From the NCBI GenBank assembly GCA_016926155.1, contig JAFGPC010000087.1, positions 1-43,911 on the forward strand: 43,911 bases of DNA. Reading direction: 5' to 3'. This DNA is from Sedimentisphaerales bacterium (GTDB lineage: Bacteria > Planctomycetota > Phycisphaerae > Sedimentisphaerales > Anaerohalosphaeraceae). Each line of letters begins with the position of its first letter. Within the stretch, counting starts at the first letter, position 1. The notes under the pieces were generated by a model, which was given only the letters and a program-made list of their open reading frames with translations, had not been told where the DNA came from and ran no database searches. Of this stretch, positions 5,917-27,243 are shown one piece after another. Made by a program: the position numbers and the translations under genes.

Positions 5917-7323
5917 TTATGGACAAAGCAGACTGTTGCATTCGAGCCAGTGCAATGCCAGTTCGGCCAAGTCGTTTAAGGATACAATACAGTCATTGTC
6001 AAAATCGCCCAGGATCGGCTCATATCCGGGCATGGCCTGTGCGGCAAGACAGGGCGTTTCGGCCACGATAATCTCGATAGTATCTGCACCAATTTGGTCG
6101 GTATCATCGGCCGTCAATTGGAATTGATACGTGCCTGTCTCAGGAAGCACCAAAGTGATATCTTCCACATCGGCAGGATCGATTGTGACCTCCGGACCAC
6201 TGGTCTGTGACCAGAGAACAGATAATGCCCCGCTCGGTAGCCCGTCATCGGTCACAGTGGCGTCAATCTGGATTGTTGCCGTGGCCGGATCGCCTGCATT
6301 GTTCAGCCAGACGTATTGGTCTTCTCCTGCATCTACGGAAGGAGTGTCGTTGTTGGTGTTAAAGCTCCAGAGTACACCGGCAAGAAACTCCTCGCCTTCT
6401 CCCAGACTTGGATCATAACAATCCACTACCCAGTAATACGTTTCAAACTGTTCAAGGACAATCGGGATATCGATACATGTTTCTATAATGCCTTCTTCTG
6501 CCGTAATTCGCTCAAGCCCGAAGCCCGGTAACGACTCATTTGGGTCTTTCGTGCCGAAATAAACATCACTGGTAAGAATCGTTCCGGGAATATTCGGATC
6601 CGGGAGAGTCCAGCAAAGCTGAGTCAAATCTACAGAGACTGTACTGCCTTTTCCCGGCTGAGGATCGAAAGCCGCTCGAGCCGGTCCCGTTTCTCCTTCC
6701 AATAGGGTACCTCCTGCGGAGTGTTCACTGGAACGAATAATGGCTTGATTTCCATCCACTGTTATTGCAAACAGGAAAATAACCGTACCATCTGTATCAC
6801 TATTAAGGAAATCCGCCACGGCATCACTAATATCCGTCGAAGCCCGTTCTCCCTGAGCGGGTGGGATAAAGGTCATCAAAGGGCCTTCTAAATCAGCCAG
6901 ATCCAGGGCTACGGGATCATTGAGAGGTGGCGTCGGATTATTTTGGACACCAGGGGCTGTGTTCCAGGTTAGATTTTCTACGGTAGTACCGGGAGTAAGA
7001 TCATCCTGGCTTTCGATCACACCGTATACATCGATCGGATCGTCCTGATCATGACCAAAATTGCTGAAACTGATATTAGTAAAGACCTCACCGGGGAATA
7101 TCACCTGAGAAAGATTATATTGAAGGAGAATGACTCGCCGTCTGTCCGGTATATTCCGTGCTCCCAGGCCTGATCCTTCCGAAGAAGCATCCGGAGACAG
7201 GGATGGATCATTGCCAATTTCGATGTCAGCAACTGCACCCATGCTGAATGGTTCTGCTTGAAGACTACTATGTAGTAGTGAAACCAGAGATAGAACAACC
7301 CAATAAGATATTCTCTTGGACAT
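5917..7323 (-). CDS. Secreted multi-domain protein with dockerin-like C-terminus
   Basis: The 468-aa exported protein has a signal peptide ending near LQA. Residues about 25-215 form a jelly-roll-like region resembling the DNRLRE/CBM96-type domains (RRVILLQYNLS, later DISDAVADFLN). A fibronectin-like domain follows (SVDLTQLCWTLPD ... YYWVVDCYD), then a PKD/cadherin-like domain (VDAGEDQYVWLNNAG ... YQFQLTADD), and last a single dockerin-like calcium loop, GDFDNDCIVSLNDLAELALH. In planctomycetes this C-terminal half repeat is common on exported proteins and need not mean a cellulosome. A perfect AGGAGG lies 9 bases before the ATG. No enzyme domain is visible; it is probably a surface or binding protein. 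It is divergent from the giant gene. Confidence 0.75.
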   Translation of the reverse strand: MSKRISYWVVLSLVSLLHSSLQAEPFSMGAVADIEIGNDPSLSPDASSEGSGLGARNIPDRRRVILLQYNLSQVIFPGEVFTNISFSNFGHDQDDPIDVYGVIESQDDLTPGTTVENLTWNTAPGVQNNPTPPLNDPVALDLADLEGPLMTFIPPAQGERASTDISDAVADFLNSDTDGTVIFLFAITVDGNQAIIRSSEHSAGGTLLEGETGPARAAFDPQPGKGSTVSVDLTQLCWTLPDPNIPGTILTSDVYFGTKDPNESLPGFGLERITAEEGIIETCIDIPIVLEQFETYYWVVDCYDPSLGEGEEFLAGVLWSFNTNNDTPSVDAGEDQYVWLNNAGDPATATIQIDATVTDDGLPSGALSVLWSQTSGPEVTIDPADVEDITLVLPETGTYQFQLTADDTDQIGADTIEIIVAETPCLAAQAMPGYEPILGDFDNDCIVSLNDLAELALHWLECNSLLCP

Positions 7324-7875
7324 GTCAATAACCTCCTCTGAATTGTGTAAAATGTCTATATATTCCTTTTCATCTACCCGGCGGGATACATTGCCACAGA
7401 ATCACCTCCCTTCTTGTCCGCGGGGCAATCTGTATTATAAGCATTTTTCCTTTGGGTCAATTTGATGAAACTCCTGAGCTGCATGTTCTACAATACCTGA
7501 AATTCTTGCAATGTCAAATGCCCCATTTGAACGATTTGGATCCTTCGTTAAAAAAGGCACTCAGGACGAATTTCAACTTGGGGAACTGGAAAAGTCTTGA
7601 TTTTTCATATTTTTTTGGGTATTTTGTATATCACAGTTATGGAGGAGATAGTACCGGAGGTGGGGCCTTCAATACGTTTTTAGGCCCGGGAACCCGTATG
7701 TAAACATAAAGAGGCGGTTTTTGGTCCACATATTTCTATTGAAATCTTGTAACATCGACCCTATTGAACCGTCTAAAAAAATGGCTGAGCCTAATGTATG
7801 TGAGAGTATAGGTCTGCCAATCGTTTAATAGGTGATGATTTAAGTCCTTAATCCCCAAGGCAAGGAGGGACACCA
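7324..7875. other. Divergent intergenic region without a convincing gene
   Basis: About 550 bases separate the dockerin protein from the giant gene. The minus-side leader contains an ATTGCC/GGCAAT inverted pair (about 7391-7430) enclosing a strong GGGAGGTGAT ribosome-binding-like sequence that has no proper gene behind it. The plus side shows T-rich stretches and, around 7764-7777, a TTGAACCGTCTAAA block that recurs before the kinase gene at 29169. No convincing sigma-70 promoter for the giant gene was found; a TTGAAA-N17-TATTGA arrangement near 7740-7768 is weak. Confidence 0.5.
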
Positions 7876-10800
7876 ATGGTATCGGTTGCACGTAAAACGG
7901 TTTTTGGATTATCCTGTGTTTTTTTATTCGCTTCTGTGGGATTGGGAGCAATCCTTCGAGTGCCTTCCGGAGAATACCCCACTTTGGATGAAGCGCTGTC
8001 TGCATCAACTGCCGGAGATGAGGTGTGGGTTACCCAGGGAATTTATCTTCCTGATACGAGTGGCCTGACGGATCCCCGTCAGGCTGTTTTTGAAGTGCCT
8101 GATGGCGTGGCGGTTTATGGAGGATTTGCCGCATCCGATTCCGATTGGTTCCAGAGGAATCCTTTGCTCTATCCGACTATTCTAAGCGGCGATCTGCTCG
8201 GCAATGACGATAAAAAGGTCGATATCGACGATCCGACCCGATCCGACAACTGTTATCATGTTGTTGACGTAAGCAATACCGGTCCTTCCACTGTACTTGA
8301 CGGATTTACCCTGATGGGTGGTTATGCTATTGCGACGGTGGACTGGCCTGACAATTGTGGCGGAGGTGTACTCAGCCTTACCTCGGAGGCGCAAATAAGA
8401 AACTGCCGGATCGAGAAAAACTTTGCTAACCAGGGCGGGGGCTTTTACACCGTTGACAGCAATGTAACCGTTCAACAATGTATTGTTCTTGACAATGTAG
8501 CCGCCGAGGCCGGCGGAGCAGCTTATATGACCGGTGAAGCGGATGTTTCAAATCTAATCGGATGCTTGATTGTAGGAAATAACGCCAATGCCGGAGGGGC
8601 AATCGGCTTGGACCGCAGCAACGCGATCCTGGTGAACAATGTCATTATTTACAATACCTCGATGCAGGGAGGAGGACTTTTCAATTTTCGTGGCAAACCT
8701 ATCCTGGTTGGTTGCACAATGAGCGGCAACAATGCCATCGGGGTCGGCGGTGGTATTCTGGCAACCGGGAGAGGCAGCAGTATAACGGTTACCAATAGTA
8801 TTCTCTGGGACAATACCCATGGGAGCGGAGGCGGGCAAATAGCTCAACTGGCCGGTGGAGCTTATCTGGTAACTTATAGTTGTATACAAGGCTGGGACGG
8901 CTCACTGGGAGGTGCCGGCAATATTGCAGCCGATCCCCAATTTACCGATCCGGACGGCGCCGATGATATTGTTGGAACCGAGGATGATCTATTTGTTCTT
9001 ATCAGTGGTTCACCCTGTATTGATGCCGGGGATAATACGGCGGTACCCGAAGGTATCTTACTGGATATCTCAGGAGCACCCCGTTTTCAAGACGATCCGC
9101 TGACATCCGATACAGGTAATGGAACGGCGCCGATTGTAGATATGGGGGCCTATGAAGGAACGGTTCAATTGATTCTTGTCAGTACAGAAGAATTGCACGT
9201 TCCGGAAGGAGAAACCGCAGACTTTACTGTGGCGCTGGAAGCGGATCCGGGGGGAACGATTGAAGTGAATGTTTCCATTATGGGTGACGCCGACCTGAAC
9301 CTTTTGACCGGTTCGACGTTGTTCTTTGATTCCACCAATTATTCTCAGGGACAGACGGTTCGTATTACAGCCGCTGAGGATTCGGACTGGGCTAACGGTC
9401 AGGGCACAATCTCCCTTTCGGCGACGGGATATGTAACAACAACCGTTCTGGCAAGAGAAGTCGATAATGATATGCCAACCGAACTTTATGTGGACGCTTC
9501 CGCTGCCGGATCGGGCCAGGGTACAAGCTGGTCCAATGCGTTTGTTCGCCTGGAGGATGCCTTTGCCGAAGTGGCTCAGTTGCCGACTTTGCAGGCGATT
9601 TATGTGGCCGAAGGAACCTATACACCTGCCGGATCAAACGGAACACGGGATGCGACATTTGCTTTACGTAATGGTCTGGCGGTTTATGGCGGATTTCCCA
9701 GCGGTGGAGCGGCAATACAGGAGCGAGACCCGATTTCCTATCCGACAATTTTAAGCGGAGATCTGAACAGCAATGACACAGGAGATATAAGTGATTTAAG
9801 TCGTTCAGAAAACGTTTTCCATGTTGTGACGGCTGAAGTGGTGGATTCTTCGGCAGTTCTGGATGGATTTATCGTTATTGGAGGACATGGACAAGGGCCG
9901 GATGGGACCTATCGTAATGGAAGCGGTTTGTATAATGTCGGCGGCAGCCCGACTATCGTTAATTGTACCTTCCGACTCAATGGAGGGCAGGATTGCTACG
10001 GTGGCGCTGTTTACAACGGATCCGGTTCGCCGACGTTTGTAAGCTGTCGATTTGAGAACAACAGTGCCGGGGAAAATGGAGCGGGAGGGGCAATGTACAA
10101 TGCATCCAGTGATGCCACTCTTCTTCATTGTGTTTTTCTTGGCAATACAGCATATGGCGGCGGGGGGATCTGCAATGATGATTCCGATGGAGTTATAAAG
10201 AATTGCAGATTTGAAGAAAATACAGCTATTGGACAGGGAGGAGCACTTTACAATCGTAATGACAGTAATCCCATGATCCAACTGTCTCGTTTTATGAATA
10301 ACATAGCCGATACGGGAGGCGCTATTCGTAATGATAACTTGAGTAATCCAATCATTCAGAGTGCTTTATTCATGAACAATAGTGCGGAGCGGGGTGGAGC
10401 GATTTACAATTTCGATGCCAGCGAAGCTATATTGGTCAATTGCACCCTGATAGATAATGTTGCATCGAATAAAACAGGTGGTATTTATAACCAGATGAGT
10501 AATCCGGTCTTGACCAATTGTATCTTGTGGGGCAATGTAGGGCCGGATACCTCATTTGATAATCAGTTGTCCGGTGGAGTTCCTGTCGTCAATTATTGCT
10601 GTATCGAAGGTCTGAGTGATGATCTGGACGGTCAGGGCAATATCGGGGATGATCCGCAATTAGCCTTTTTAACGGATCCGCGCCCCGTAGTCGGTTCACC
10701 CTGTGTTGATACGGGAACCAATACTCCGACGGGAGATATATCCGAAACCGATTTAGATGGGGCGATTCGTATTTTGGATGGTAACGGGAGCGGCCAGGCT

Positions 10801-13800
10801 ATTGTGGATATGGGAGTTTATGAGTTTGACCGAACAACACCAAGGCTGGCTGTTACGCCGTCTTCTTTTACATTTGATGCCATACAGAATCGGCCCAATC
10901 CGGCCGATCAGCAACTACAGATTTGCAATGCAGGGGGAGGACAACTGGAATGGCAAATTACAAAAGAATGTTCTTGGTTAACCTTGAGCAAGGAAGTGGG
11001 CAGTTCTGTCGGTTCCATTGAATCCGTGAATCTCAGTGTAGACATCTCCGCTTTGGATCCTGGAGACTATGAATGTCAATTGGTGATTGCCGCAACCGAT
11101 GCTGCCGGCAGTCCAAGAATAATACCGATTCGTCTGGGAGTGCAATCCGAACCAATCGAAGGAATAATCCGTGTTCCAGTGGATGTAACCACGATTCAGG
11201 AGGCCATTGATGTGGCCCAACCCGATGATCATATCGTTATTTCTCCGGGAATCTATACGGAGAACATCCAATTCAAAGGTAAACAGATTGTTGTTCGATC
11301 AACGGATCCGGAAAATCAGCAGGTTGTAGCTCAAACAGTAATCCACAGTGCCGGTGACGGTTCCGTTGTAACATTTTTAGGAAACGAACAGGAACAAACC
11401 CAGTTACTGGGTTTGACTATCACCGGAGCTGATAGTACGGGACCGGGTGCAGGTATTTTTGGGAATCAGACCCAAGCGACGATTAGCCGATGTGTTATTC
11501 GTAATAATCAAGCGAATGGTGCAGGTGGTGGCATTGTTGGATGTCAAGGTCGAATTATTCATTGTATGATTGTCAATAATAGTTCCGGTCTTTGGGGGGG
11601 TGGTTTGGCCGGCTGTGCAGGCCAAATCCATGATTGCTTGATTGTTGGAAACTCAGCTCCTTATGGCGCAGGATTGAACAATTGCGATGGCAATATCGTC
11701 AACTGCACCATTAGTAACAATACGGCTTCTAATGCAGGCGGAGGTCTGAGATTCTGCGACGGCAGTATTATTAATTGTATCATTTGGGGTAACAGCCCCG
11801 ATCAGATTTCCGAAGGCTCCAAACCGGTCTTCAGTTGTATACCTGAAGAATATCCCGGTCTGGGTAATCTCCATATCAATCCTGGTTTTGTGCAAACTCC
11901 GGGCAATTATCAGCTCGTGCCGGATTCGCCTTGTATTGATACGGGATCCAATCATCCGGAAGAACTCTGGGGTGGTGGTGAAGAGGAATATTTTACCGAA
12001 CTTTTCCAAAGCGGTTCTGATGATTCGTTTGATTTGTCCAATAAGGCTGTGACGTTTACTCCCGGCGGATTGAACGGATATTGGACAGGTTTGGAAGATG
12101 CTACGACCTTTTTTACCAGTCCTTCGGGTGGTCAGAACCTGAGCTTGAGCGACGACCATTATCTGCAGGTTGTGGTTGGACAGGGGAAAACGATTCCATT
12201 TTTTGATCAGCAATATGATCGTTTCTATGTAGGCAGCAATGGGTATGTTACCTTTGAACAGGGGGACAACAATCTTTCCGGAACCCTTTCCTCTCATTTC
12301 AATCTTAAACGAATTTCCGGTATGATGTGTGATCTGTATCCACCAGGAAACGGACAAGTAAGCTGGAAACAGGAAAGTGACCGAGTTGCCGTAACATTTG
12401 AAAATATTCCGGAATGCTGTGACAATACACCGAAAACCTCGTTCCAGATCGAAATGTTCTTTGACGGACGGATTCGAATCACGTGGTTAACGGTTCTTGT
12501 GCAGCGATCTCTGGTCGTAGGACTTTCTCAGGGTGGCGGATTTCCCGCAGGATATAACAACGCGAATTTTCCACAAAGTGATATGAGCCAATACAGCCGC
12601 AGTTCTGTCAAACCGTTTGCACCCGAACCGCTGGCCCAGAACGATTTGACCGGCGAGTCCAGACTGTTGGATGGTGATAACGATGGTAATGCTGTCGTCG
12701 ATATGGGCGCCTATGAAGCTTTTGTCGAAGTACCCGTCTTTGATGTATATCCGCAGGGGATCCATTTTTGGATTTATAATGACGCTTCGAATCTGTCGGA
12801 TCAGATGCTTCATGTGCGAAATCGGGGTGGTTCCATATTGGAATGGGAGATTGTTAACAATTGTCCATGGTTAAGTCTTTCCGCACAGTCCGGGGATAGT
12901 ACTGACGAAATTGATGATATTACGCTGAGCGTAGATATTACCAATCTTTCTCTGGGCGTGCATACATGCGAGTTGGTTGTACAGAGTGAAGATGCCTATA
13001 ATACTCCCCAGATCGTCCAGATTCTGTTGCATATCTATGACGGCCATATTTATGTACCGCAGGATACGGATACGGTTCAACAGGCCATCGATTTCGCAAG
13101 CGAGGGAGATATCATTGTTGTAGCGCCCGGGATTTATCATGAACATATCGATTTCCACGGTAAAAGTATTACGGTAACCGGTTCAGATCCCGACAACTGG
13201 GAAATGGTCTCGCAGACGATTCTGGACGGTCAGGGCCTGGATGGGAGTGTTATTACGTTTGCCAATGGCGAGGGGCCGGAAACTCGGTTAGCAGGCTTGA
13301 CGATTCAGGGAGGTGTGGGAACGAGTGACAATTCGAGTAGTTGGGCAACCTACTATCGAGGTGGAGGAATTTACTGTGACCAGGCTTCGCCGACGATCGA
13401 ACGCAATATCATTCAAGATAACATTTGTCCCAGCGGTGACTATTTATATGGATATGGAGCGGGAGTGTATTGTCGTTATTCTGATGCGGTGATCAGGCGA
13501 AATATTATACAGAGCAATATCGCCTACTATGGTGGTGGAATCTGCAGCGAATCGAGCCAGTCTGTCATCGCTTGTAATTTGATCGTTTCAAATGAGAGTG
13601 GTTATGCCGGTGGTGGAGTCTATATCGGATCAGGCAGTTTTCTGATCAACAATACCATTAGTGACAACACAGCCTATGTTGGAGGCAATCTGTATGTCTC
13701 CGGCCAGGCGCTGGTAGCCAATAACATAGTTACCTTTGCTCAAAATGGCAGTGGAGTTTACTGGTCGGGCTGGCACCGACTGGAGATGGGGGATCGGTTT

Positions 13801-16800
13801 GTTTATAATAACGTCTGGAATAACATGCCGATGAACTATGCTGAAAGCGGGGATATGTCCGATGCAACCGGGTATAACGGCAATATTTCCATATCCCCAC
13901 GTTTTGTGGATCGGTCGGATGGAAACTACCGACTCCAGACAGATTCCCCCTCTGTCAATGCATGTCCTCTCGATTGGGCGGATCGGATCGGTCTGTTGGA
14001 CCTGGATGGCGATGAACGTGTTTTTGCCAATCGTCTGGACATGGGCGCATTTGAAATTCCAGGTTACTATGCTCCTATGGCCGAGGCCGGACCTGATCTG
14101 CATATTCTGCAGACGGGACAGGCGGTCACACTGGATGGATCATCCAGTTATTTTGACGCCGCCGCCAGCCGGCAGGAATTTTCCTGGGTACAGCTTTCCG
14201 GTCCCGCCGTGAACCTGACGAGCCCTGCTTCGCCAATAACCACATTTGTACCTGACATGCCGGAAACATATCGTTTTGAGCTGGTGGTTTTTGATGGACA
14301 AAACTACAGTGAGCCTGACCAGGTGATCATTGTCGTGGGGAATCATCCACCGGTGGCCGTGACAGACAATTACGTTCTTTATACGGCGCCAGTGAGCGGG
14401 GGAGACTGGAATGTCTATCTGGATGGTAGTGACAGTTATGATCCGGATCCGGGTGATACACTGACATATACCTGGCAACAACTGAGTGGTCCGCAAGTCC
14501 AGCTTATCAATGCAAACCAGGCAAGAGCCTCTTTTCGATATCAGCAGCAGGGAATATACGAGTTTGAACTGATCGTCAGCGACGGTTTCGAAACCGGAGT
14601 ACCGGCCGTTGTCCGAGTGGTTACGGCCTTGCCGGAGAGTACGTATCAGGATCAGGGATATTTATATATTGAGGCGGAGGGAATTGGCTTTAATGACTTG
14701 AGATTCCCTGATCTATTCGGTTCAAATATAGCAGTCAGTGGATATTACTACGACAATGGATATCACTGGGATATTTTGGTCAAGGATCTGGAAGATGAAA
14801 CCGCTGCTGTAACGCGTTTCACAGGTAACAACGGATTAAATATAAATCCAAGTATTAACGGAGACCTCGTTGCCTGGTCGGGAACCGCTGCCGGAATAAG
14901 TCCCTACGGCTCAGAACCAGTGAATACGTCTGTTTTTGTGGGTAAAATTTCTACAGGAATACAAAAAGCTCTGCGATTGGGGACCTCCACTTCCTCCTAC
15001 GGTATGCCTGTCATTTCAGGCAATTTGGTTGTTTGGCTGGAACATGAAGGATTGGACTTGAATGATGTGGAAAACAAATGGTTCAATACTCCCTTCAGTA
15101 TTCGAGGGGCTGACGTATCGGATTGGAACAATCCGATCTTCTTTACGATCGCCTCAAATGTAGGGCGATGTGATCCATTCCCCTCCCAGGAAATTGGCAA
15201 TATTTATACGGTCCCGAGTAAGCTGGATATAGACGGGCACCTCCTCGTTTTTGAAGCAGATGGGAATATTTATGGCGCTGATTTGTCGGACCTGGATGAC
15301 ATTCAAGTCTTTGGAATCTGTCTGGAACCTGGCCGTCAATACGATCCGGTTATCTCCGGAAACACGGTATTGTGGACCGATCAGCAAAATGATCAAGGCG
15401 ATATTTATGCTGCGGATATTTCCAACCACCAAGTTGGTCAGCCTTTTGGATTGTGCGTACAAAGCGGCCGGCAGGAATATCCCGCTATTGACGGCCATAC
15501 CGTTGTGTTAAACGAATCAGGATATTTACGATTTTATTCCATCAGCCGCAACGGAGATTTAGTATCGATTCCTGCAGGTAGTCAATATGGGATCGGTCCG
15601 GTGATCAGTGGACGTTGGGTGGTCTGGTCATATTATGGCAATGTGCGTATGATGACGCTGGATTATGGTTATACGATTGCAGATGGGCCGGTTGAGAATA
15701 TATCTTCCATGCAGCGGTATGATGCTATTCAGCAGGCTATCCAGGCGGCCGCTGTGAATGATACAATCGTTGTTCAACCGGGACGATATCGTGAAAACAT
15801 TCATTTTGGCGGTAAAGATCTTAAGGTCAGTTCCTTGGATCCGGCAGATGATTCGATTGTGCGAAGCACCATTATCGAAGGAAACGGGACAACCAGCACG
15901 ATATTGTTTGAAGGAACAGAAACCAATTCATGTGAACTGACAGGTTTTACAATAACAGGAGGTTACAGTTCTGAATCGGGTGGAGGAATCAGAGGATTTT
16001 ATACCAGTGCAACAATTCGTCGATGTGTTGTTATCGGAAATTCAGCGCCCAATGGAGCAGGTGGGGGTATCCAAAGCCTGGCCGGCTGGATTGATTCCTG
16101 TATTATACAAGGAAATACAGCCTATTTGGGAGGTGGCCTGGCAGGATGTTCCGGGCGGATCAGTAACTGCATTATCGCCGATAACCAGGCGAACGTTGGT
16201 GCAGCCTTAAATAACTGTGATGGAACCATTCTCAATTGTACGATTGTAGGTAATTCGGCGCCGGACGAGGGTGTAATTCGTGATTGCGACGGAACGATTG
16301 TAAATTGCATCATTTGGGGCAATACGCCGGAGGTTGTGATACATAATTCTGTTGAGCCTCTCCATAGCTGCTATCCGGGAGGTGGAGGAAATGGAAATAT
16401 TGACCTTGATCCGCTTTTTGCGCTGGAAAAAGATTATCATATTATGCCGATGTCTCCGTGTATTGATGGAGGGACTAGTGAGATTACGGACGGTTTAGAT
16501 GAAACGGACCTGGAAGGCCTTATGAGAGAAATGGATGGCGATTCCGACTCTATTTCTATTGTGGATATGGGAGTGTATGAGTTCAGTCCGACAGGTTCAC
16601 GAATTGCAGTTTCTACCAAAAAGATTGTTCTTGAAGGATTGGAAGGGCAGGAGTGGACAGGAGAAGCAACGATATCTATTCGCAACTGTGGAGCGGAGGT
16701 TTTAAACTGGCAGGCACAATCCAGTCGAAATTGGTTGGATGTTACACCCGAACTGGGACAGATAACAGATGAAGTAATGCAACTGGAAATTCGGGCGCAT

Positions 16801-19800
16801 GCCGCTCTTTTGTCCGCCGGTGTATATGAAGGCCTTATCATGATCGTCGATGAAAACGCATTGAACAGTCCACAAACCATTCAAGTTACTCTGGTTCTTC
16901 ACAAGCATATTTACCATGTTCCGGAAGAGTACGGTACAATCCAGTCGGCTATTCTGGCGGCGGGAGATGGTGATACGATCCTCGTGGCGGATGGAATCTA
17001 TCGTGAGAACATAGACTTTCTCGGCAAGAACATCACGCTTCGCTCTATCGATCCGGAAAATTGGCACACTGTCACAGATACTATTATCGATGCCGGTGGC
17101 TCAGGTGTTGTCGTCATGTTCTCCGGTACGGAAAACGCCGCCTGTCGGCTGGAGGGTTTTACTCTTAGAGGAGGATATAACACGACTTCGTGCGGTGCGG
17201 GAATCATTGGAAACGGTGCTGAATCCACAATCCGAAGATGTATCATTGAAGGCAATGAATCAATTTTTTGCGGTGCAGGAGTCACAACATGTAACGGAAG
17301 GATTGAAGAATGTATTATTCGAAACAATACGGCCAATGCCGGTGGTGCCCTTTCGGGTTGCCAGGGCACGATCACAAACTGTCTGATTACCGGTAATGTC
17401 GGTGACCGAGCCGGCGGGTTGAATGCTTGTAATGCACAGATCGAACATTGTACGATTGTGAATAATGTCGGGGCTAACACCGGTGGAGACGGCTGTGGTG
17501 CCTTGAGGATGTGTAACGGAATGATCAGAAACTGTATCATCTGGGGCAATAGCTGGCCCGTTTCTTACGAGAGCAATCCAACGATTACATTTAGCAATGT
17601 GCAGGGTGACTGGACCGGTGAAGGAAATATCAATCTGGAACCGCAATTTATCTCGGATCAGGATTTCCGGCTGTCTCCTCTTTCCCCCTGTATCGATGCC
17701 GGGATGGATACGGGTGTAACGGTCGATCTGGAAGGCGCATACAGACCTTATGATGTTCCGGAGATCGATAACAATGGCGATTTGCCTGACTTTGACATGG
17801 GTGCTTATGAATATGATCCCCGACCTTCTATTCTTATCAGTCCACAGTCATTGACGTTTGAAATGAATCTAGATCAGGAGGATCCTGAACCGCGTATGCT
17901 GACGCTTCGTAATGGACGAATGGGGGTTTTAAACTGGACGATTAGTGAAGACTGCGAATGGTTGTCGCTGGATGTCACTTCGGGACAAGTGGAAGCAGAC
18001 GCCGTCTCTCAAGTGATGGTTTCTGTGCAGGCAAATGATCTCGAATCCGGCCAATATGCCTGTGATCTGGTTATCAGTGATCCGCAGGCGGTAAATAATC
18101 CTCAACATGTATCGGTTACTTTGGTCATCCATGGACCAGCCTTGGATGTTTCCCCTGAAGCATTTGATTTTACCGCCGACCGCGATGGGGCCAATCCGTC
18201 GGATCAGTATTTGAATATCACCAATACAGGAGGTGGACAGTTGCATTGGGCCATCGCATACGATTGTGCGTGGTTAAGCGTGGATCACCTTTCCGGTGAG
18301 ACAACCGATAGTGATTCTATAGCCCTTTCCGTGGATGCCGCCGGCCTGGACTGGGGCACTTACAATTGTGAAGTGATTGTATATGATGCAACCGATCCAG
18401 AGGGACAGATTAATGGAGAACGCATTCCCGTTAGACTGACAATTACGGGTCCGGTGATTCGTCTTTCGACAGACCATGTGGCCTTTAACGCACGCCCAGG
18501 CACAACAGCGGCCGATCAAACAATTACAATTGAAAATGTGGGAAGCGGTAGATTGGTTTGGACCATTATCGAAGATTGCCCATGGTTGGAGATCAATCCT
18601 ACAAGTGGCAGCACCTCATCAACTGCGCTGGAAATTGTGCTTCATCCAGTCGGCTTGGCGAGCATGGAGCTGGGATACTATTCCTGTGATCTGGTAGTTT
18701 CCGATGAACAGGCTGTCAACAGCCCATTGGCAATACAAGTAGATCTGCATATTCGCTCTTCTCTCCAGGTCCCTGCCGATTATGATACAATCCAGGCCGC
18801 GATCAATGCTGCAATGGAAGGTGAAGTGATTGTAGTGGTCGAAGGTACTTATCAAGAACATATCAATTTCCTTGGCAAGAATATTGTCGTGACAAGTGTC
18901 GATCCGGAAAATCCGGCCGTTGTTGCCAATACAATCATTGACGGACAAGGAACCGGCAGTGTTGTAACCTTTACTAACGGTGAAGGCCCCGAGACCGTCT
19001 TGACCGGTTTTACGATTACCGGTGGCGGCGGTGGTACGCAATACAATGCGCAAGGTGAATCGGCATTCTGGGGGGCGGGAATCTTTTGTGCTTCGGCTTC
19101 GCCGACGATCTGCTGCAACCGTATTGTGGCCAATGGAACAATGCAGGGATCAGAACTCTATGGAGGAGGTATTGCATGTATAGAGTCTTCTGCTCATGTA
19201 GATCGAAATACTATTACCTTGAATGTTGCTGATGCATGTGCAGGTGTAATAGTCTGGATGGGAAATCCGCTTATTTCCAACAATTTGATTTATGCGAATA
19301 CCGCTGATGAAGTAGCCGGCGGTATGGCTCTTGTTTATGGCGGACGGGCATTTAATAACACCATCGATCGTAATTCGGCTGATGAAGCGGGAGGCAATCT
19401 GTATTCCTATAATGCCATAGTGAAAAACAATCTGATTACAAACGCATCCAGTGGAGGGGGTGTGTTGTTGATCATTGAGGGGCAAAACCCGGATTTAAGT
19501 AGTTTTGCTTACAACTGTGTCTGGGGTAATACGGGAGGGAACTACATGTTTGAGGGGGGGCAGGGGATTAATGATTTGACAGGGCAAAACGGCAATATTT
19601 CGGAAAATCCTCTTTTTGCCGGTCAGGACGATTACCAACTAACGGAAGGATCCCCCTGCTTTAATGCAGGATATCCGAACGATGGCTATGAAGGCTGGCT
19701 GGATTATGCTGGACTACCGCGTGTACTGGGTGGTCGAGTGGATATCGGAGCTTATGAATTTGCGGTTGACCTGCTACCGGTGGCCGACGCCGGTCAGGAT

Positions 19801-20394
19801 CAAATATTCTTTGCCGGATCGAATGGAACGGCAGCAATCACATTGGATGGTTCCGGCTCACAGGATCCGACCGGCTTGGAACTCAGTTATTTCTGGTATC
19901 TGGGAGAGGATTTGATATCCACGGAAGTCCAGCCTGAGTTGAATGCGGAACCGGGGCAATATACCTTCCAACTGATCGTTAGCAACGGAATGGATCAATC
20001 ACAGCCAAGTCAGGTGACTATGACTGTAATGGAGGCCATCGAGTTGTCAATGGTCTGTACTCCTCGTCGAATCGAGGCAGGCACCCTGGATCGATGGCTG
20101 AAGGCTTATTTCCGTTTGACAGACATTCCGATTGATCAGGTGGATCTCAAAATGCCAATGAAATTGGAAACCATAGGCCAGGAATCGACCATGGTTATGA
20201 CGAACATGACCGATGACGGTGTGATCGGATTACAGGCGGCATTCGACCTGCATGTGTTTTCTAATGGTATTACCCCCTCGGAAATGCCTATTGTACTTAC
20301 GATCACAGGTCGACTGCGAAGCGGACAAATCTTTTACGGAACAACAGAAATCGAATATGTGGAAGATCCACTTCCAATTGATCGACGGCGATAA
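7876..20394 (+). CDS. Giant secreted modular beta-helix protein (4172 aa)
   Basis: One uninterrupted frame. A signal peptide (residues 1-24) is followed by, with approximate residue limits: beta-helix 1 (26-432); Calx-beta-like sandwich (433-535); beta-helix 2 (536-988); BACON-like 1 (989-1093); beta-helix 3 (1094-1619), which holds an inserted domain at about 1362-1589; BACON-like 2 (1620-1723); beta-helix 4 (1724-2063); two PKD-like domains (2064-2255); a WD/TolB-like propeller (2256-2608); beta-helix 5 (2609-2908); BACON-like 3 (2909-3010); beta-helix 6 (3011-3315); BACON-like 4, 5 and 6 (3316-3630); beta-helix 7 (3631-3964); PKD-like 3 (3965-4055); a final beta domain (4056-4172). Helix modules mostly open with VPxDYxTIQxAI and close with DMGAYEF-like caps. 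No catalytic motif, dockerin, sorting signal or C-terminal membrane helix was recognised. AAGGAGGG stands before the ATG. A role in surface architecture or glycan binding is a guess. Confidence 0.85.
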   Translation: MVSVARKTVFGLSCVFLFASVGLGAILRVPSGEYPTLDEALSASTAGDEVWVTQGIYLPDTSGLTDPRQAVFEVPDGVAVYGGFAASDSDWFQRNPLLYPTILSGDLLGNDDKKVDIDDPTRSDNCYHVVDVSNTGPSTVLDGFTLMGGYAIATVDWPDNCGGGVLSLTSEAQIRNCRIEKNFANQGGGFYTVDSNVTVQQCIVLDNVAAEAGGAAYMTGEADVSNLIGCLIVGNNANAGGAIGLDRSNAILVNNVIIYNTSMQGGGLFNFRGKPILVGCTMSGNNAIGVGGGILATGRGSSITVTNSILWDNTHGSGGGQIAQLAGGAYLVTYSCIQGWDGSLGGAGNIAADPQFTDPDGADDIVGTEDDLFVLISGSPCIDAGDNTAVPEGILLDISGAPRFQDDPLTSDTGNGTAPIVDMGAYEGTVQLILVSTEELHVPEGETADFTVALEADPGGTIEVNVSIMGDADLNLLTGSTLFFDSTNYSQGQTVRITAAEDSDWANGQGTISLSATGYVTTTVLAREVDNDMPTELYVDASAAGSGQGTSWSNAFVRLEDAFAEVAQLPTLQAIYVAEGTYTPAGSNGTRDATFALRNGLAVYGGFPSGGAAIQERDPISYPTILSGDLNSNDTGDISDLSRSENVFHVVTAEVVDSSAVLDGFIVIGGHGQGPDGTYRNGSGLYNVGGSPTIVNCTFRLNGGQDCYGGAVYNGSGSPTFVSCRFENNSAGENGAGGAMYNASSDATLLHCVFLGNTAYGGGGICNDDSDGVIKNCRFEENTAIGQGGALYNRNDSNPMIQLSRFMNNIADTGGAIRNDNLSNPIIQSALFMNNSAERGGAIYNFDASEAILVNCTLIDNVASNKTGGIYNQMSNPVLTNCILWGNVGPDTSFDNQLSGGVPVVNYCCIEGLSDDLDGQGNIGDDPQLAFLTDPRPVVGSPCVDTGTNTPTGDISETDLDGAIRILDGNGSGQAIVDMGVYEFDRTTPRLAVTPSSFTFDAIQNRPNPADQQLQICNAGGGQLEWQITKECSWLTLSKEVGSSVGSIESVNLSVDISALDPGDYECQLVIAATDAAGSPRIIPIRLGVQSEPIEGIIRVPVDVTTIQEAIDVAQPDDHIVISPGIYTENIQFKGKQIVVRSTDPENQQVVAQTVIHSAGDGSVVTFLGNEQEQTQLLGLTITGADSTGPGAGIFGNQTQATISRCVIRNNQANGAGGGIVGCQGRIIHCMIVNNSSGLWGGGLAGCAGQIHDCLIVGNSAPYGAGLNNCDGNIVNCTISNNTASNAGGGLRFCDGSIINCIIWGNSPDQISEGSKPVFSCIPEEYPGLGNLHINPGFVQTPGNYQLVPDSPCIDTGSNHPEELWGGGEEEYFTELFQSGSDDSFDLSNKAVTFTPGGLNGYWTGLEDATTFFTSPSGGQNLSLSDDHYLQVVVGQGKTIPFFDQQYDRFYVGSNGYVTFEQGDNNLSGTLSSHFNLKRISGMMCDLYPPGNGQVSWKQESDRVAVTFENIPECCDNTPKTSFQIEMFFDGRIRITWLTVLVQRSLVVGLSQGGGFPAGYNNANFPQSDMSQYSRSSVKPFAPEPLAQNDLTGESRLLDGDNDGNAVVDMGAYEAFVEVPVFDVYPQGIHFWIYNDASNLSDQMLHVRNRGGSILEWEIVNNCPWLSLSAQSGDSTDEIDDITLSVDITNLSLGVHTCELVVQSEDAYNTPQIVQILLHIYDGHIYVPQDTDTVQQAIDFASEGDIIVVAPGIYHEHIDFHGKSITVTGSDPDNWEMVSQTILDGQGLDGSVITFANGEGPETRLAGLTIQGGVGTSDNSSSWATYYRGGGIYCDQASPTIERNIIQDNICPSGDYLYGYGAGVYCRYSDAVIRRNIIQSNIAYYGGGICSESSQSVIACNLIVSNESGYAGGGVYIGSGSFLINNTISDNTAYVGGNLYVSGQALVANNIVTFAQNGSGVYWSGWHRLEMGDRFVYNNVWNNMPMNYAESGDMSDATGYNGNISISPRFVDRSDGNYRLQTDSPSVNACPLDWADRIGLLDLDGDERVFANRLDMGAFEIPGYYAPMAEAGPDLHILQTGQAVTLDGSSSYFDAAASRQEFSWVQLSGPAVNLTSPASPITTFVPDMPETYRFELVVFDGQNYSEPDQVIIVVGNHPPVAVTDNYVLYTAPVSGGDWNVYLDGSDSYDPDPGDTLTYTWQQLSGPQVQLINANQARASFRYQQQGIYEFELIVSDGFETGVPAVVRVVTALPESTYQDQGYLYIEAEGIGFNDLRFPDLFGSNIAVSGYYYDNGYHWDILVKDLEDETAAVTRFTGNNGLNINPSINGDLVAWSGTAAGISPYGSEPVNTSVFVGKISTGIQKALRLGTSTSSYGMPVISGNLVVWLEHEGLDLNDVENKWFNTPFSIRGADVSDWNNPIFFTIASNVGRCDPFPSQEIGNIYTVPSKLDIDGHLLVFEADGNIYGADLSDLDDIQVFGICLEPGRQYDPVISGNTVLWTDQQNDQGDIYAADISNHQVGQPFGLCVQSGRQEYPAIDGHTVVLNESGYLRFYSISRNGDLVSIPAGSQYGIGPVISGRWVVWSYYGNVRMMTLDYGYTIADGPVENISSMQRYDAIQQAIQAAAVNDTIVVQPGRYRENIHFGGKDLKVSSLDPADDSIVRSTIIEGNGTTSTILFEGTETNSCELTGFTITGGYSSESGGGIRGFYTSATIRRCVVIGNSAPNGAGGGIQSLAGWIDSCIIQGNTAYLGGGLAGCSGRISNCIIADNQANVGAALNNCDGTILNCTIVGNSAPDEGVIRDCDGTIVNCIIWGNTPEVVIHNSVEPLHSCYPGGGGNGNIDLDPLFALEKDYHIMPMSPCIDGGTSEITDGLDETDLEGLMREMDGDSDSISIVDMGVYEFSPTGSRIAVSTKKIVLEGLEGQEWTGEATISIRNCGAEVLNWQAQSSRNWLDVTPELGQITDEVMQLEIRAHAALLSAGVYEGLIMIVDENALNSPQTIQVTLVLHKHIYHVPEEYGTIQSAILAAGDGDTILVADGIYRENIDFLGKNITLRSIDPENWHTVTDTIIDAGGSGVVVMFSGTENAACRLEGFTLRGGYNTTSCGAGIIGNGAESTIRRCIIEGNESIFCGAGVTTCNGRIEECIIRNNTANAGGALSGCQGTITNCLITGNVGDRAGGLNACNAQIEHCTIVNNVGANTGGDGCGALRMCNGMIRNCIIWGNSWPVSYESNPTITFSNVQGDWTGEGNINLEPQFISDQDFRLSPLSPCIDAGMDTGVTVDLEGAYRPYDVPEIDNNGDLPDFDMGAYEYDPRPSILISPQSLTFEMNLDQEDPEPRMLTLRNGRMGVLNWTISEDCEWLSLDVTSGQVEADAVSQVMVSVQANDLESGQYACDLVISDPQAVNNPQHVSVTLVIHGPALDVSPEAFDFTADRDGANPSDQYLNITNTGGGQLHWAIAYDCAWLSVDHLSGETTDSDSIALSVDAAGLDWGTYNCEVIVYDATDPEGQINGERIPVRLTITGPVIRLSTDHVAFNARPGTTAADQTITIENVGSGRLVWTIIEDCPWLEINPTSGSTSSTALEIVLHPVGLASMELGYYSCDLVVSDEQAVNSPLAIQVDLHIRSSLQVPADYDTIQAAINAAMEGEVIVVVEGTYQEHINFLGKNIVVTSVDPENPAVVANTIIDGQGTGSVVTFTNGEGPETVLTGFTITGGGGGTQYNAQGESAFWGAGIFCASASPTICCNRIVANGTMQGSELYGGGIACIESSAHVDRNTITLNVADACAGVIVWMGNPLISNNLIYANTADEVAGGMALVYGGRAFNNTIDRNSADEAGGNLYSYNAIVKNNLITNASSGGGVLLIIEGQNPDLSSFAYNCVWGNTGGNYMFEGGQGINDLTGQNGNISENPLFAGQDDYQLTEGSPCFNAGYPNDGYEGWLDYAGLPRVLGGRVDIGAYEFAVDLLPVADAGQDQIFFAGSNGTAAITLDGSGSQDPTGLELSYFWYLGEDLISTEVQPELNAEPGQYTFQLIVSNGMDQSQPSQVTMTVMEAIELSMVCTPRRIEAGTLDRWLKAYFRLTDIPIDQVDLKMPMKLETIGQESTMVMTNMTDDGVIGLQAAFDLHVFSNGITPSEMPIVLTITGRLRSGQIFYGTTEIEYVEDPLPIDRRR
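11960..12641 (+). other. Domain inserted in the end cap of beta-helix module 3
   Basis: In the other helix modules SPCIDTG runs directly into DLDG..R..DG...VDMG. In module 3 about 225 residues are placed between SPCIDTGSN and DLTGESRLLDGD. The insert begins EEYFTELFQSG and contains YDRFYVGSNGYVTF, VSWKQESDRVAVTFENIPE and FQIEMFFDGRIRITWL. A domain of this look occurs in other planctomycete secreted proteins, including some proteases (from memory); its function is not known to me. Confidence 0.6.
14640..15700 (+). other. Beta-propeller segment inside the giant protein
   Basis: About 350 residues contain repeated blades of the type DILVKDL, INGDLVAWSG, ISGNLVVWLE, IDGHLLVFEADGNIYGADL, ISGNTVLWTDQQ.DIYAADI and ISGRWVVWSYYG. 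The (I)xGxxVxW...G(D)IYxADL pattern is that of TolB/DPP-like propeller blades. It lies between the second PKD-like domain and beta-helix module 5, and is the only propeller in the protein. Confidence 0.65.
17821..18765 (+). repeat. Three tandem BACON-like domains (repeats 4-6)
   Basis: Three adjacent units of about 105 residues, each starting with a SPxxxxF-type strand, carrying CxWLxx in the middle and YxCxLVI near the end. Elsewhere in the protein such units occur singly between helix modules. The tandem run suggests recent local duplication of the spacer domain. Confidence 0.65.
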
Positions 20395-24804: not shown

Positions 24805-27243
24805 TTATTCATGTTGTTTAAGATAGAGTACTATCGCCCCATCGATTGGAGACGCGAAAGCCGTTTGTCCGGAAAATGTCTCCATTTGGTCTTTCTTGAT
24901 CATCTGTTCCTTGCCGGGATCATACCACTCTACGGTGTAATACCCGGGGGCAATCTGTGCCGTGATTGGCCCATTTCCCTCCGGTCGGTAGATTAGATAT
25001 TCTCTTGCCGGGCAGGTCAGGCAATATCCCGTGGAAGAAAGATTCGGGCGAGGCTGCATCCTGGACAGGTTCATTCGATCGGCCCAGTAACGCGTGGCTC
25101 CAAGGCTTCGCCGCAATGGTTCATATTGTTCTTCGAAACGCCCCCCTAAAATCAATCCGTCATAAGGATCCATGAAGAGGGGATTGTGCCCGCGAAGGAA
25201 ACTTTTCCAGGCCCATGTCGCATTCCCCCCGATGCCCCAGAGATGGTCCGTATCGAGCAGGATAACCTTATTTCCTTCAGCCGCAGGCGGATTGTCACGA
25301 TATCCACCTTCCGGATTCGGGCTGATCCAATCAGCCGGACTGTCGAAGAGTGTCTGGTTTGATCCCCCTTTGTATTGGAATGTCATACCCACTGGATGCT
25401 GCTTGGGTTTAGATATCTCCACCTCTTTGATGAAGCGTATCATATGATACTGCCATGCGGTGGAAGGGGGATGGTTTTCATTGGAGATTTCGTATAGAAC
25501 ATTGTTCAGGTCATTCAGTGTATCAATGACCTTACGGACATAGGTTTGCTGAAGAGATAAAACTTTTTTATCCGCCAAGGTGTGGATTTCCAGACCTCTA
25601 TCATCCCCGTTGCTATCCCCGTTGATTCCATTGATATTGTTGTCTTTATGAAATGGGTGACCCTGCCATGCTCCGGGAGAAAACTGCATGGCCCAGCCTT
25701 CAAACAACATGATCGACACGTAAATCTCTCGACGATTTGCTTCGGCTACTCGCTGCCGCAAACGCCCAAAATACTCCGGATCGAATCGCGTCAAATCATA
25801 TTTTGGCTTGTCGTCCAGCGCATTTCCGGGTCCGGTTCGAAGCCATGGACTGGGGCATACATAATGGACAGCATCCCGTCGATTATTTTTAGTATTCCAT
25901 GTCCCCGGTTCCCAAGTCCAAAGCCGGATAAAGTTATGATGATAATCCTGCATCCAATCGAGATATTGGTTAAAGTTGAAAGCGGGTGGAGGATCTGTCG
26001 GTCCCATATCCAGTAGATTATTCCAGGTATGCGATCCGGTTAAATACACCGCTTTGCCGCTTCCATCGGTAAAATAACGAGGATTGGACGGATGGGTGCA
26101 CAATGGACCTGGAGCGCCGGTGATAGATTGCCCGATCATGCCCAGAAACCGGCTCCAGATTTTGTTGTCGATCGTTTTATCCGATTGATCCATGCCAAGA
26201 CGGACGATAACCATTTGCCATTCGGGAATAACAAACATCTTGTTGTTATTATACCCCGATGCGGAGAACGTTCCTGGCGGTGCTTCCGGCCACAGTCTTT
26301 CGCCATCCGGGCAAATTCCGTTGGTCCACCAGTTGTATCCATAAACACCGCGGCCGTCGATTCCGCTCTCAAAATGGCCCAAGGGCATAGACACCGGGAC
26401 ATGGTTTTGCGTAGCCTGATCGATCCAGTCGGCGCTGATTAATTGCAGGCCGTCCCAAAAACCTCGATTCAAAAACAAATGCCCGAACCGGGCCATCTGT
26501 CGGGCCGAGATTTGGATGTGTTTATTACTGTTGCCCGAACCTCCGTTGATAGCTATCCCATTGGTAATGGTAAATTCGCCCCAGCTCCACTGGGTAGGAT
26601 TCATGCCGATGGGATCAGCAATCCGACGCTTGAAAAGATCTTCGATCTTTTCTGCGGCAATCTGCGTGAGAATATTTCCAAACTGGTTCATGGCCGAATC
26701 CCAGTAGGCATATTTCTTGCCCGGTGCAAACAGGGGATCACCGGTAAGAAAAGGAGTGGAACTGGGGCCGTGTGTATATCCATTTTTGGGTTCATCGTCT
26801 TGCGCGCGATATCCACTGGTCATCGTTGTGAAGTGTTCCAAGGTGACATCGGCAAAGTGGTCTTTCATGTCAGGTACAATGTCGACTGCTTGAGTGTCCA
26901 GAGTTGCCTTGCCGTCATCAATTAGCAGACCCAGCACCGTGCTTGTGAAAGATTTGGTCATAGACCAGACGCCATGCACCTTGTCGATGTTGTCCCCCTT
27001 GTGAATAAGTACCCCATTTCGAATGATCACTAATTCGCGAACGCCGTCCCGACCGGAATTGGCAGTAAGATACTTCACTGCTTCTTGAAGAGAAGCTGTG
27101 TCAATCCCTTGCTCTTGGGGAGAACTTTGAAGCCAATCCTCCCGGGGAAAATGCATGGGAGAAGAAACAAGAACCGAACGAGAGAAGAACAAGAAACTGA
27201 AATAGAATAACAAAAAAAACGAAACATAGTTCTTTTTATGCAT
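24805..27243 (-). CDS. Secreted fusion: beta-lactamase-family serine hydrolase plus TIM-barrel glycosidase-like domain
   Basis: The 812-aa exported protein has two enzyme-like halves. Residues about 35-375 are a class C beta-lactamase/transpeptidase-type serine hydrolase: nucleophile motif S94MTK, a YWDSAMNQFG segment at the second motif, FSASGYNNN at the third. Members include carboxylesterases and peptidases. Residues about 382-720 are a (beta/alpha)8 barrel related to DUF4038/GH5-like proteins, with VLYEISNENH carrying the acid/base Glu and VILLDTDHLWGIGGN at the position of the second carboxylate, here Asp. The end (REYLIYRPEG ... YYTVEWYDP) matches the putative collagen-binding domain (PF12904) common behind such barrels. 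GAGGGG precedes the ATG. A protein that removes an ester and cleaves a glycan is an inference. Confidence 0.75.
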   Translation of the reverse strand: MHKKNYVSFFLLFYFSFLFFSRSVLVSSPMHFPREDWLQSSPQEQGIDTASLQEAVKYLTANSGRDGVRELVIIRNGVLIHKGDNIDKVHGVWSMTKSFTSTVLGLLIDDGKATLDTQAVDIVPDMKDHFADVTLEHFTTMTSGYRAQDDEPKNGYTHGPSSTPFLTGDPLFAPGKKYAYWDSAMNQFGNILTQIAAEKIEDLFKRRIADPIGMNPTQWSWGEFTITNGIAINGGSGNSNKHIQISARQMARFGHLFLNRGFWDGLQLISADWIDQATQNHVPVSMPLGHFESGIDGRGVYGYNWWTNGICPDGERLWPEAPPGTFSASGYNNNKMFVIPEWQMVIVRLGMDQSDKTIDNKIWSRFLGMIGQSITGAPGPLCTHPSNPRYFTDGSGKAVYLTGSHTWNNLLDMGPTDPPPAFNFNQYLDWMQDYHHNFIRLWTWEPGTWNTKNNRRDAVHYVCPSPWLRTGPGNALDDKPKYDLTRFDPEYFGRLRQRVAEANRREIYVSIMLFEGWAMQFSPGAWQGHPFHKDNNINGINGDSNGDDRGLEIHTLADKKVLSLQQTYVRKVIDTLNDLNNVLYEISNENHPPSTAWQYHMIRFIKEVEISKPKQHPVGMTFQYKGGSNQTLFDSPADWISPNPEGGYRDNPPAAEGNKVILLDTDHLWGIGGNATWAWKSFLRGHNPLFMDPYDGLILGGRFEEQYEPLRRSLGATRYWADRMNLSRMQPRPNLSSTGYCLTCPAREYLIYRPEGNGPITAQIAPGYYTVEWYDPGKEQMIKKDQMETFSGQTAFASPIDGAIVLYLKQHE

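Follow-up and report, generated by a model that had tools for sequence, protein, structure and literature searches.

A 4172-residue beta-helix mosaic of a Sedimentisphaerales bacterium and its recurrent C-terminal domain

The contig JAFGPC010000087.1 from the genome of a Sedimentisphaerales bacterium (GCA_016926155.1), analysed here over its whole length of 43,911 nucleotides (the window), contains one open frame of 12.5 kb. The original prediction, made from the DNA letters, described its product as a giant exported beta-helix protein of unknown purpose. The locus raises the question of whether such a protein stands alone, whether any of its parts may be an enzyme, and how it ends.

The frame was exactly as predicted, a single open frame of 4172 codons whose ATG is preceded by a Shine-Dalgarno-like sequence (Table 1). 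The five other frames of the same interval contained 71 to 280 stops. The predicted protein has 132 Arg, 307 Asp and 285 Asn residues; Lys is strongly depleted, with only 36 among the 4172 residues. The hydropathy maximum fell at about residues 8-30, consistent with a signal peptide through which the protein would be exported by the Sec pathway. Past residue 60 every 19-residue window had a hydropathy of 1.64 or less, and no transmembrane helix was found by such windows in the whole protein beyond the signal peptide.

Table 1. Features of the giant gene and its divergent neighbour (window coordinates).
Feature	Coordinates	Strand	Evidence
Divergent neighbour, exported-looking, 468 aa, PKD and dockerin-like tail	5917..7323	-	PF22352; tail by eye
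Shine-Dalgarno-like aaggaggg, just 5' of ATG	7861..7870 (position approximate)	+	Read directly
Giant ORF, 4172 aa, 443 kDa, pI 4.1	7876..20394	+	Exact ORF call; mass and pI predicted
Sec-type signal peptide, residues 1-24	7876..7947	+	Sequence and top hydropathy windows (start residues 8-14); cleavage site by eye
Beta-helix module 1 and choice-of-anchor-Q closing motif	7948..9159	+	PF13229, best stretch 160-308; NF041518 26.5 bits, cut-off 25
Spacer, beta-sandwich character	9160..9465	+	Inferred from sequence; no Pfam match
Beta-helix module 2, POMP-type repeats, sub-cut-off choice-Q	9466..10842	+	PF13229, PF02415, TIGR01376; NF041518 22.8 bits
BACON/ASH-like domain 1	10843..11160	+	PF19190
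Beta-helix module 3	11161..12738	+	Pfam/NCBIfam and seven-module alignment
Inserted domain, ~200 aa, splitting the choice-Q closing segment of module 3	11980-12630	+	Seven-module alignment
BACON/ASH-like domain 2	12739..13041	+	Weak PF13004 and alignment
Beta-helix module 4, opens conserved core	13042..14070	+	Pfam/NCBIfam and homologues; no choice-Q by profile
Two PKD domains	14071..14634	+	PF22352, PF17963, PF18911
Beta-propeller, TIGR04275-like	14635..15681	+	73.4 bits, cut-off 85; conserved in 27 aligned sequences
Beta-helix module 5, closes conserved core	15682..16599	+	Pfam/NCBIfam and homologues
BACON/ASH-like domain 3	16600..16902	+	PF19190
Beta-helix module 6 and choice-Q	16903..17829	+	PF13229; NF041518 30.8 bits; AlphaFold2 model and VIA
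Three consecutive BACON/ASH-like domains	17830..18756	+	PF19190, three stretches
Beta-helix module 7 and choice-Q, homologous to module 4	18757..19770	+	NF041518 33.1 bits; homologue matches
PKD preceding terminal domain	19771..20028	+	PF18911; model blocks pLDDT 87-96
Recurrent Ig-like C-terminal domain (CTD), residues 4052-4164	20029..20367	+	Profile searches and AlphaFold2; not in Pfam/NCBIfam
Short terminal tail PLPIDRRR	20368..20391	+	Sequence

The domain map was built from Pfam and NCBIfam profile searches with the whole protein and with pieces of it. As listed in Table 1, seven beta-helix stretches were matched by PF13229 (125.9 bits against a gathering cut-off of 25.9), and BACON_2, PKD and beta_prop_Msarc matches lay between the helices, so that the predicted architecture of helices separated by BACON-like, PKD-like and propeller domains was borne out. 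Pfam recognised five BACON_2 stretches, and six BACON-like domains, one of them weak, were placed with the help of the alignment. The three PKD domains are the two ahead of the propeller and the one ahead of the CTD; the propeller itself scored below the cut-off of TIGR04275 (beta_prop_Msarc). The choice-of-anchor Q motif exceeded its cut-off in modules 1, 3 (28.6 bits), 6 and 7 and fell below it in modules 2 and 5 (18.5 bits); no NF041518 match was found in module 4. The Rhombotarget A model TIGR04212 gave only 23.8 bits for module 2, against an equivalog cut-off of 295. No dockerin (PF00404) was matched in the whole protein or in pieces, and neither a cohesin nor a type V autotransporter was matched by Pfam. 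The C-terminus consists of PKD and Ig-like domains and not of a beta-barrel; a GlyGly-CTERM rhombosortase tail is absent, the chain ending in PLPIDRRR with no hydrophobic helix.

Much of this architecture is shared. With residues 2148-3006 as query, matches at E <= 1e-30 were obtained in 73 of 159 genomes of the order, the giant's own included, and in at least 24 other genomes the match extended from PKD across the propeller and into the following helix (query start <= 60, end >= 700). In relatives this core forms proteins of ~1250 aa with a signal peptide, a beta-helix, two PKD domains, a propeller and a second beta-helix; their ends vary, some stopping past the last helix and some carrying dockerin-like pairs. 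Within the giant the core occupies residues ~1723-2905, with three modules before it and two after. The closest relative, a 1758-aa protein from a Phycisphaerae MAG (JADHXS010000058.1), is 44% identical over 859 aa. It has the order helix-PKD-PKD-propeller-helix-BACON-helix-CTD, as in the giant, but has no counterpart of modules 1-3 or of one helix/BACON block, and a half-dockerin directly follows its CTD where the giant has a short tail ending in RRR. In many genomes, core-family proteins match module 7 and its PKD with their N-terminal halves, so that the giant looks like a mosaic formed by duplication and joining. By sequence comparison, it is a member of a large order-wide family and is not isolated.

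The length of the frame might instead be an artefact of assembly or binning in which paralogous beta-helix genes were fused. The contig is number 138 of 222 in a 5.0-Mb draft genome rich in paralogues, and core and N-terminal searches found no full-length orthologue, the longest shared stretches being ~860 aa. We nevertheless consider an artefact very improbable. Other genomes also contain the joints 4-PKD-PKD-propeller-5-BACON and 7-PKD. Within the gene, codon usage is uniform (each 700-codon block against the remainder, r = 0.87-0.94), and near-identical repeats are absent, the longest reported DNA repeat pair within the gene being 42 nt at 76% identity; these repeats appear to be old. Long related frames also occur elsewhere, and one of 3523 aa sits in a single-contig genome, which makes a pure assembly artefact less likely.

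The giant had also been rated among the largest proteins of the cell. This is a fair estimate, but the protein is not unique in size, because its genome, with 77 Beta_helix matches, also encodes beta-helix frames of 6922 and 4865 aa. The singularity that the original prediction implied is not supported, since mosaics of this kind abound in both the genome and the order. The 6922-aa frame (contig 121, 27000-52000) combines beta-helix with InlB-B-like (Flg_new_2) repeats and has a dockerin match ~400 aa ahead of its end. The 4865-aa frame (contig 47, 1-19000) shows beta-helix matches close to its start, with RHS repeats in the last 1500 aa, and is possibly a polymorphic-toxin-like giant.

Like polysaccharide lyases, esterases and hydrolases built on parallel beta-helices, one or more modules of the giant might be catalytic, which would make it a multi-domain degradative enzyme. 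The fold gives this idea some ground. An AlphaFold2 model of module 6 with its BACON domain had a mean pLDDT of 78.9 (below 60 in the closing segment). Foldseek results for it were dominated by the BACON part, and the helix was therefore judged from VIA, in which it aligned to solved beta-helices at Z 13-21, as expected for a parallel beta-helix fold. The best match was Rhombotarget A (Z 21.3, rmsd 3.3-3.5, 266 residues), followed by Pel9A (Z 20.0) and rhamnogalacturonan lyase (Z 19.3), with PL6 and pectin methylesterases at Z about 16-17. As surface proteins and lyases match nearly equally, the fold by itself leaves room for catalysis. Carbohydrate-related proteins are encoded by several of the neighbouring genes, and there is a precedent in the ~6000-aa giant of Ca. 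Menyafoubacter, in which tandem CASH beta-helices occur with a PL6-like domain (PMC12057145).

The residues speak against an enzyme, and we regard it as rather unlikely. No catalytic family was matched by Pfam or NCBIfam, and the original remark that no catalytic part is visible stands as far as it was tested. Conservation across genomes was followed for modules 4 and 5, and modules 1, 2, 3, 6 and 7 were compared through the seven-way alignment of the giant. In module 4 (24 aligned sequences) the positions kept in at least 80% were mostly Gly, Asn, Thr and hydrophobic residues in the helix body, and no Lys, Arg or His was kept at that level ahead of the closing segment. In module 5 (24 sequences) no Lys or Arg was kept in at least 80%; one His was, at position 2620 in the N-terminal cap, where the giant has Gln, and the acidic residues Asp2616, Glu2640, Asp2658 and Glu2682 are retained. 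Invariants of the seven-module alignment were mostly Gly, Asn and Pro, with Asp, Arg and Glu confined to the closing segment. The scarcity of Lys in the giant points the same way. We take this pattern of residue conservation to speak against the site of a lyase or esterase. The propeller alignment has many conserved Asp and some conserved Trp positions, which may mark a binding or other site. Elsewhere in the window, a single frame at 24805-27243 on the minus strand combines a beta-lactamase/esterase-type domain with a DUF6298/apiosidase-like one.

The divergent neighbour had been described as carrying a dockerin-like tail. Such a tail can be seen by eye, but Pfam gave no Dockerin_1 (PF00404) match to it. 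A 30-aa tail query gave 83 dockerin-like matches in the genome (many of them weak, E up to 1) and PF00404 gave 17, none of them in the giant; dockerin-like tails end 9 of the 16 beta-helix frames examined in the genome. Cohesin-dockerin complexes, or planctosomes, have been proposed for freshwater planctomycetes (PMC6461901). Together with the tailed neighbour, these counts would suit an extracellular scaffold or matrix held by cohesin-dockerin-like contacts, with the giant as backbone and dockerin-tailed neighbours as clients. We think this quite improbable, because no PF00963 cohesin was found in the genome, although the model does match in a control genome, and because no cohesin was matched within the giant. 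A divergent cohesin might have escaped this profile. Exosortase matches in the genome numbered five. In the literature collection searched, no paper on dockerin with beta-helix, or on PEP-CTERM with dockerin, in Planctomycetes was found.

The end of the giant, first described as an unassigned beta domain, proved to be a recurrent terminal domain widespread in the order. The proposed search for it in other planctomycetes, with a three-row alignment as query, found this CTD in 75 of 161 genomes of the order, with up to 19 copies per genome. At the level of the phylum, a 20-row alignment at E 1e-5 detected it in 19 genomes out of 392, and a single other family contributed most of these. It was terminal in 69 of the 70 examples from the order with readable ends: in 54 nothing followed but a tail of at most 41 residues, in 15 nothing but a half-dockerin, and in one more than 100 residues followed. 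Two tandem copies occurred at one further, truncated locus. The half-dockerins of relatives lay below Pfam cut-offs, with EF-hand or Dockerin_1 as weak matches. Since the CTD bears a half-dockerin in some relatives, the terminal module of the giant is one that can be recognised and not something unique.

The CTD is absent from Pfam and NCBIfam. Residues 4052-4172 gave no match at E 0.01 to NCBIfam (T9SS, PEP-CTERM, GlyGly-CTERM and other models), so that no known sorting domain was recognised there; with no hydrophobic helix at the C-terminus, the predicted lack of an end helix, and of a sorting motif of known type, is upheld. The CTDs of six relatives gave none in NCBIfam either, apart from a sub-cut-off match over the PKD and one chance match. 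Nothing convincing was found for the CTDs of the giant and its relatives in Pfam, and the CTD alignment had no homologue among PDB sequences at E 0.1. An AlphaFold2 model of PKD and CTD (mean pLDDT 87.9) showed two beta-sandwich domains. Foldseek and VIA matches to it included adhesion molecules, cadherins and fragments of the GhpA grappling-hook protein, with an rmsd of 6-8 A that reflects the alignment of two domains together. The claim that the giant has no anchoring part thus holds for a dockerin, a transmembrane helix and known sorting motifs, but has to be qualified, as the CTD is a widespread C-terminal module.

The short tails have a charge bias. In CTD proteins with no half-dockerin, the last ten residues had a mean net charge of +2.2 compared with +0.3 in controls, and a net charge of +2 or more was found in 61% compared with 27% (Mann-Whitney p = 2e-8); the controls were other long ORFs of the same loci chosen by length, a rough comparison in which related sequences are not independent. 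In the giant, the last ten residues (EDPLPIDRRR, with RRR at the very end) carry no net charge, and neither does the 11-residue tail. A basic tail limited to CTDs preceded by a PKD was considered and rejected, as tails after choice-Q are also basic. The genome encodes a second CTD protein (contig 95, 26300-28600) of 505 aa, with a beta-helix, choice-Q, the CTD and a Trp/Lys-rich tail, LQLDQFHWKKWFRAWKYKWFR. In another family of the phylum the CTD tails are rich in Lys and Asp (e.g., KGKKHDGEGDNGDNDNHGKKHN), compared with Arg-rich tails in the order of the giant.

The CTD and its short tail may tentatively be viewed as an uncatalogued sorting or surface-retention signal of Planctomycetota, occurring in a half-dockerin form or in a form with a usually basic tail, and having the giant as one of its cargoes; this is a possibility that we rate below an even chance. 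Alternatively, the giant is secreted and released, having once had a half-dockerin anchor after the CTD that was later lost. In a tree of 69 CTDs, that of the giant fell among mostly dockerin-bearing CTDs (modest support of 87-89; long branch of 1.62), and the closest whole-protein relative has a half-dockerin at this place. Such a loss is unlikely, however, because most CTDs of the order end in a short tail with no half-dockerin, so that its absence from the giant need not mean loss, and because no dockerin remnant was seen downstream of the stop in three frames.

On balance, we lean towards reading the giant as a Sec-exported, acidic, non-catalytic binding rod of the cell surface or extracellular space, of the adhesin or glycan-binding type, composed as a mosaic of duplicated modules. 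Its domains are of binding or structural types and its one strong hydrophobic stretch is N-terminal, both of which we count in favour of such a rod. The protein would have arisen by joining and duplicating modules of the beta-helix/PKD/propeller architecture common in the order. Its beta-helices may form a stiff ladder whose broad side faces serve for binding, with BACON/ASH-like and PKD domains as presumed spacers between helices and the propeller set within the conserved core; PKD and Ig-like CTD would close the chain. We infer from the half-dockerins of some relatives and the short, usually basic tails of most that the CTD is a retention or sorting end. For the giant itself retention is uncertain, as its CTD is divergent and its tail neutral.

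Rhombotarget A (RbtA; 9cdu, 9cdv), the solved beta-helix closest to module 6, is described as a cell-surface protein of Acinetobacter (PMC12643943), but it has 617 aa and a single helix domain where the giant has seven. The Ca. Menyafoubacter protein, proposed to be a degradative enzyme, likewise comes from the PVC group and has a signal peptide, tandem beta-helices and no transmembrane helix; the PL6-like domain, disaggregatase region and toxin-like structures reported for it (PMC12057145) were not found in the present giant. The repeated sandwich domains of GhpA, the Aureispira grappling-hook protein, align with the PKD and CTD model at Z about 10, a structural likeness over two domains for which no sequence relation was shown. 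Giant genes (>5 kb) were present in 29 of 29 planctomycete genomes examined, Fuerstia and others, and more than 90% of giant genes are stated to encode surface proteins or PKS/NRPS (PMC5177795). The passages of that report on giant genes do not describe the present domain set, and the likeness is one of description.

The giant belongs, as a new member, to an already known general kind, that of the planctomycete and PVC giants. The analysis assigns the protein to a large family spread across the order and suggests that such proteins grow by the stacking of modules around a conserved core. The uncatalogued CTD, which is open to experimental test and for which Pfam and NCBIfam have no model, is the part that deserves to be followed. 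The domain libraries searched here do not indicate which exported proteins of planctomycetes remain attached to the cell; were the CTD a sorting tag, it could help to make that distinction.
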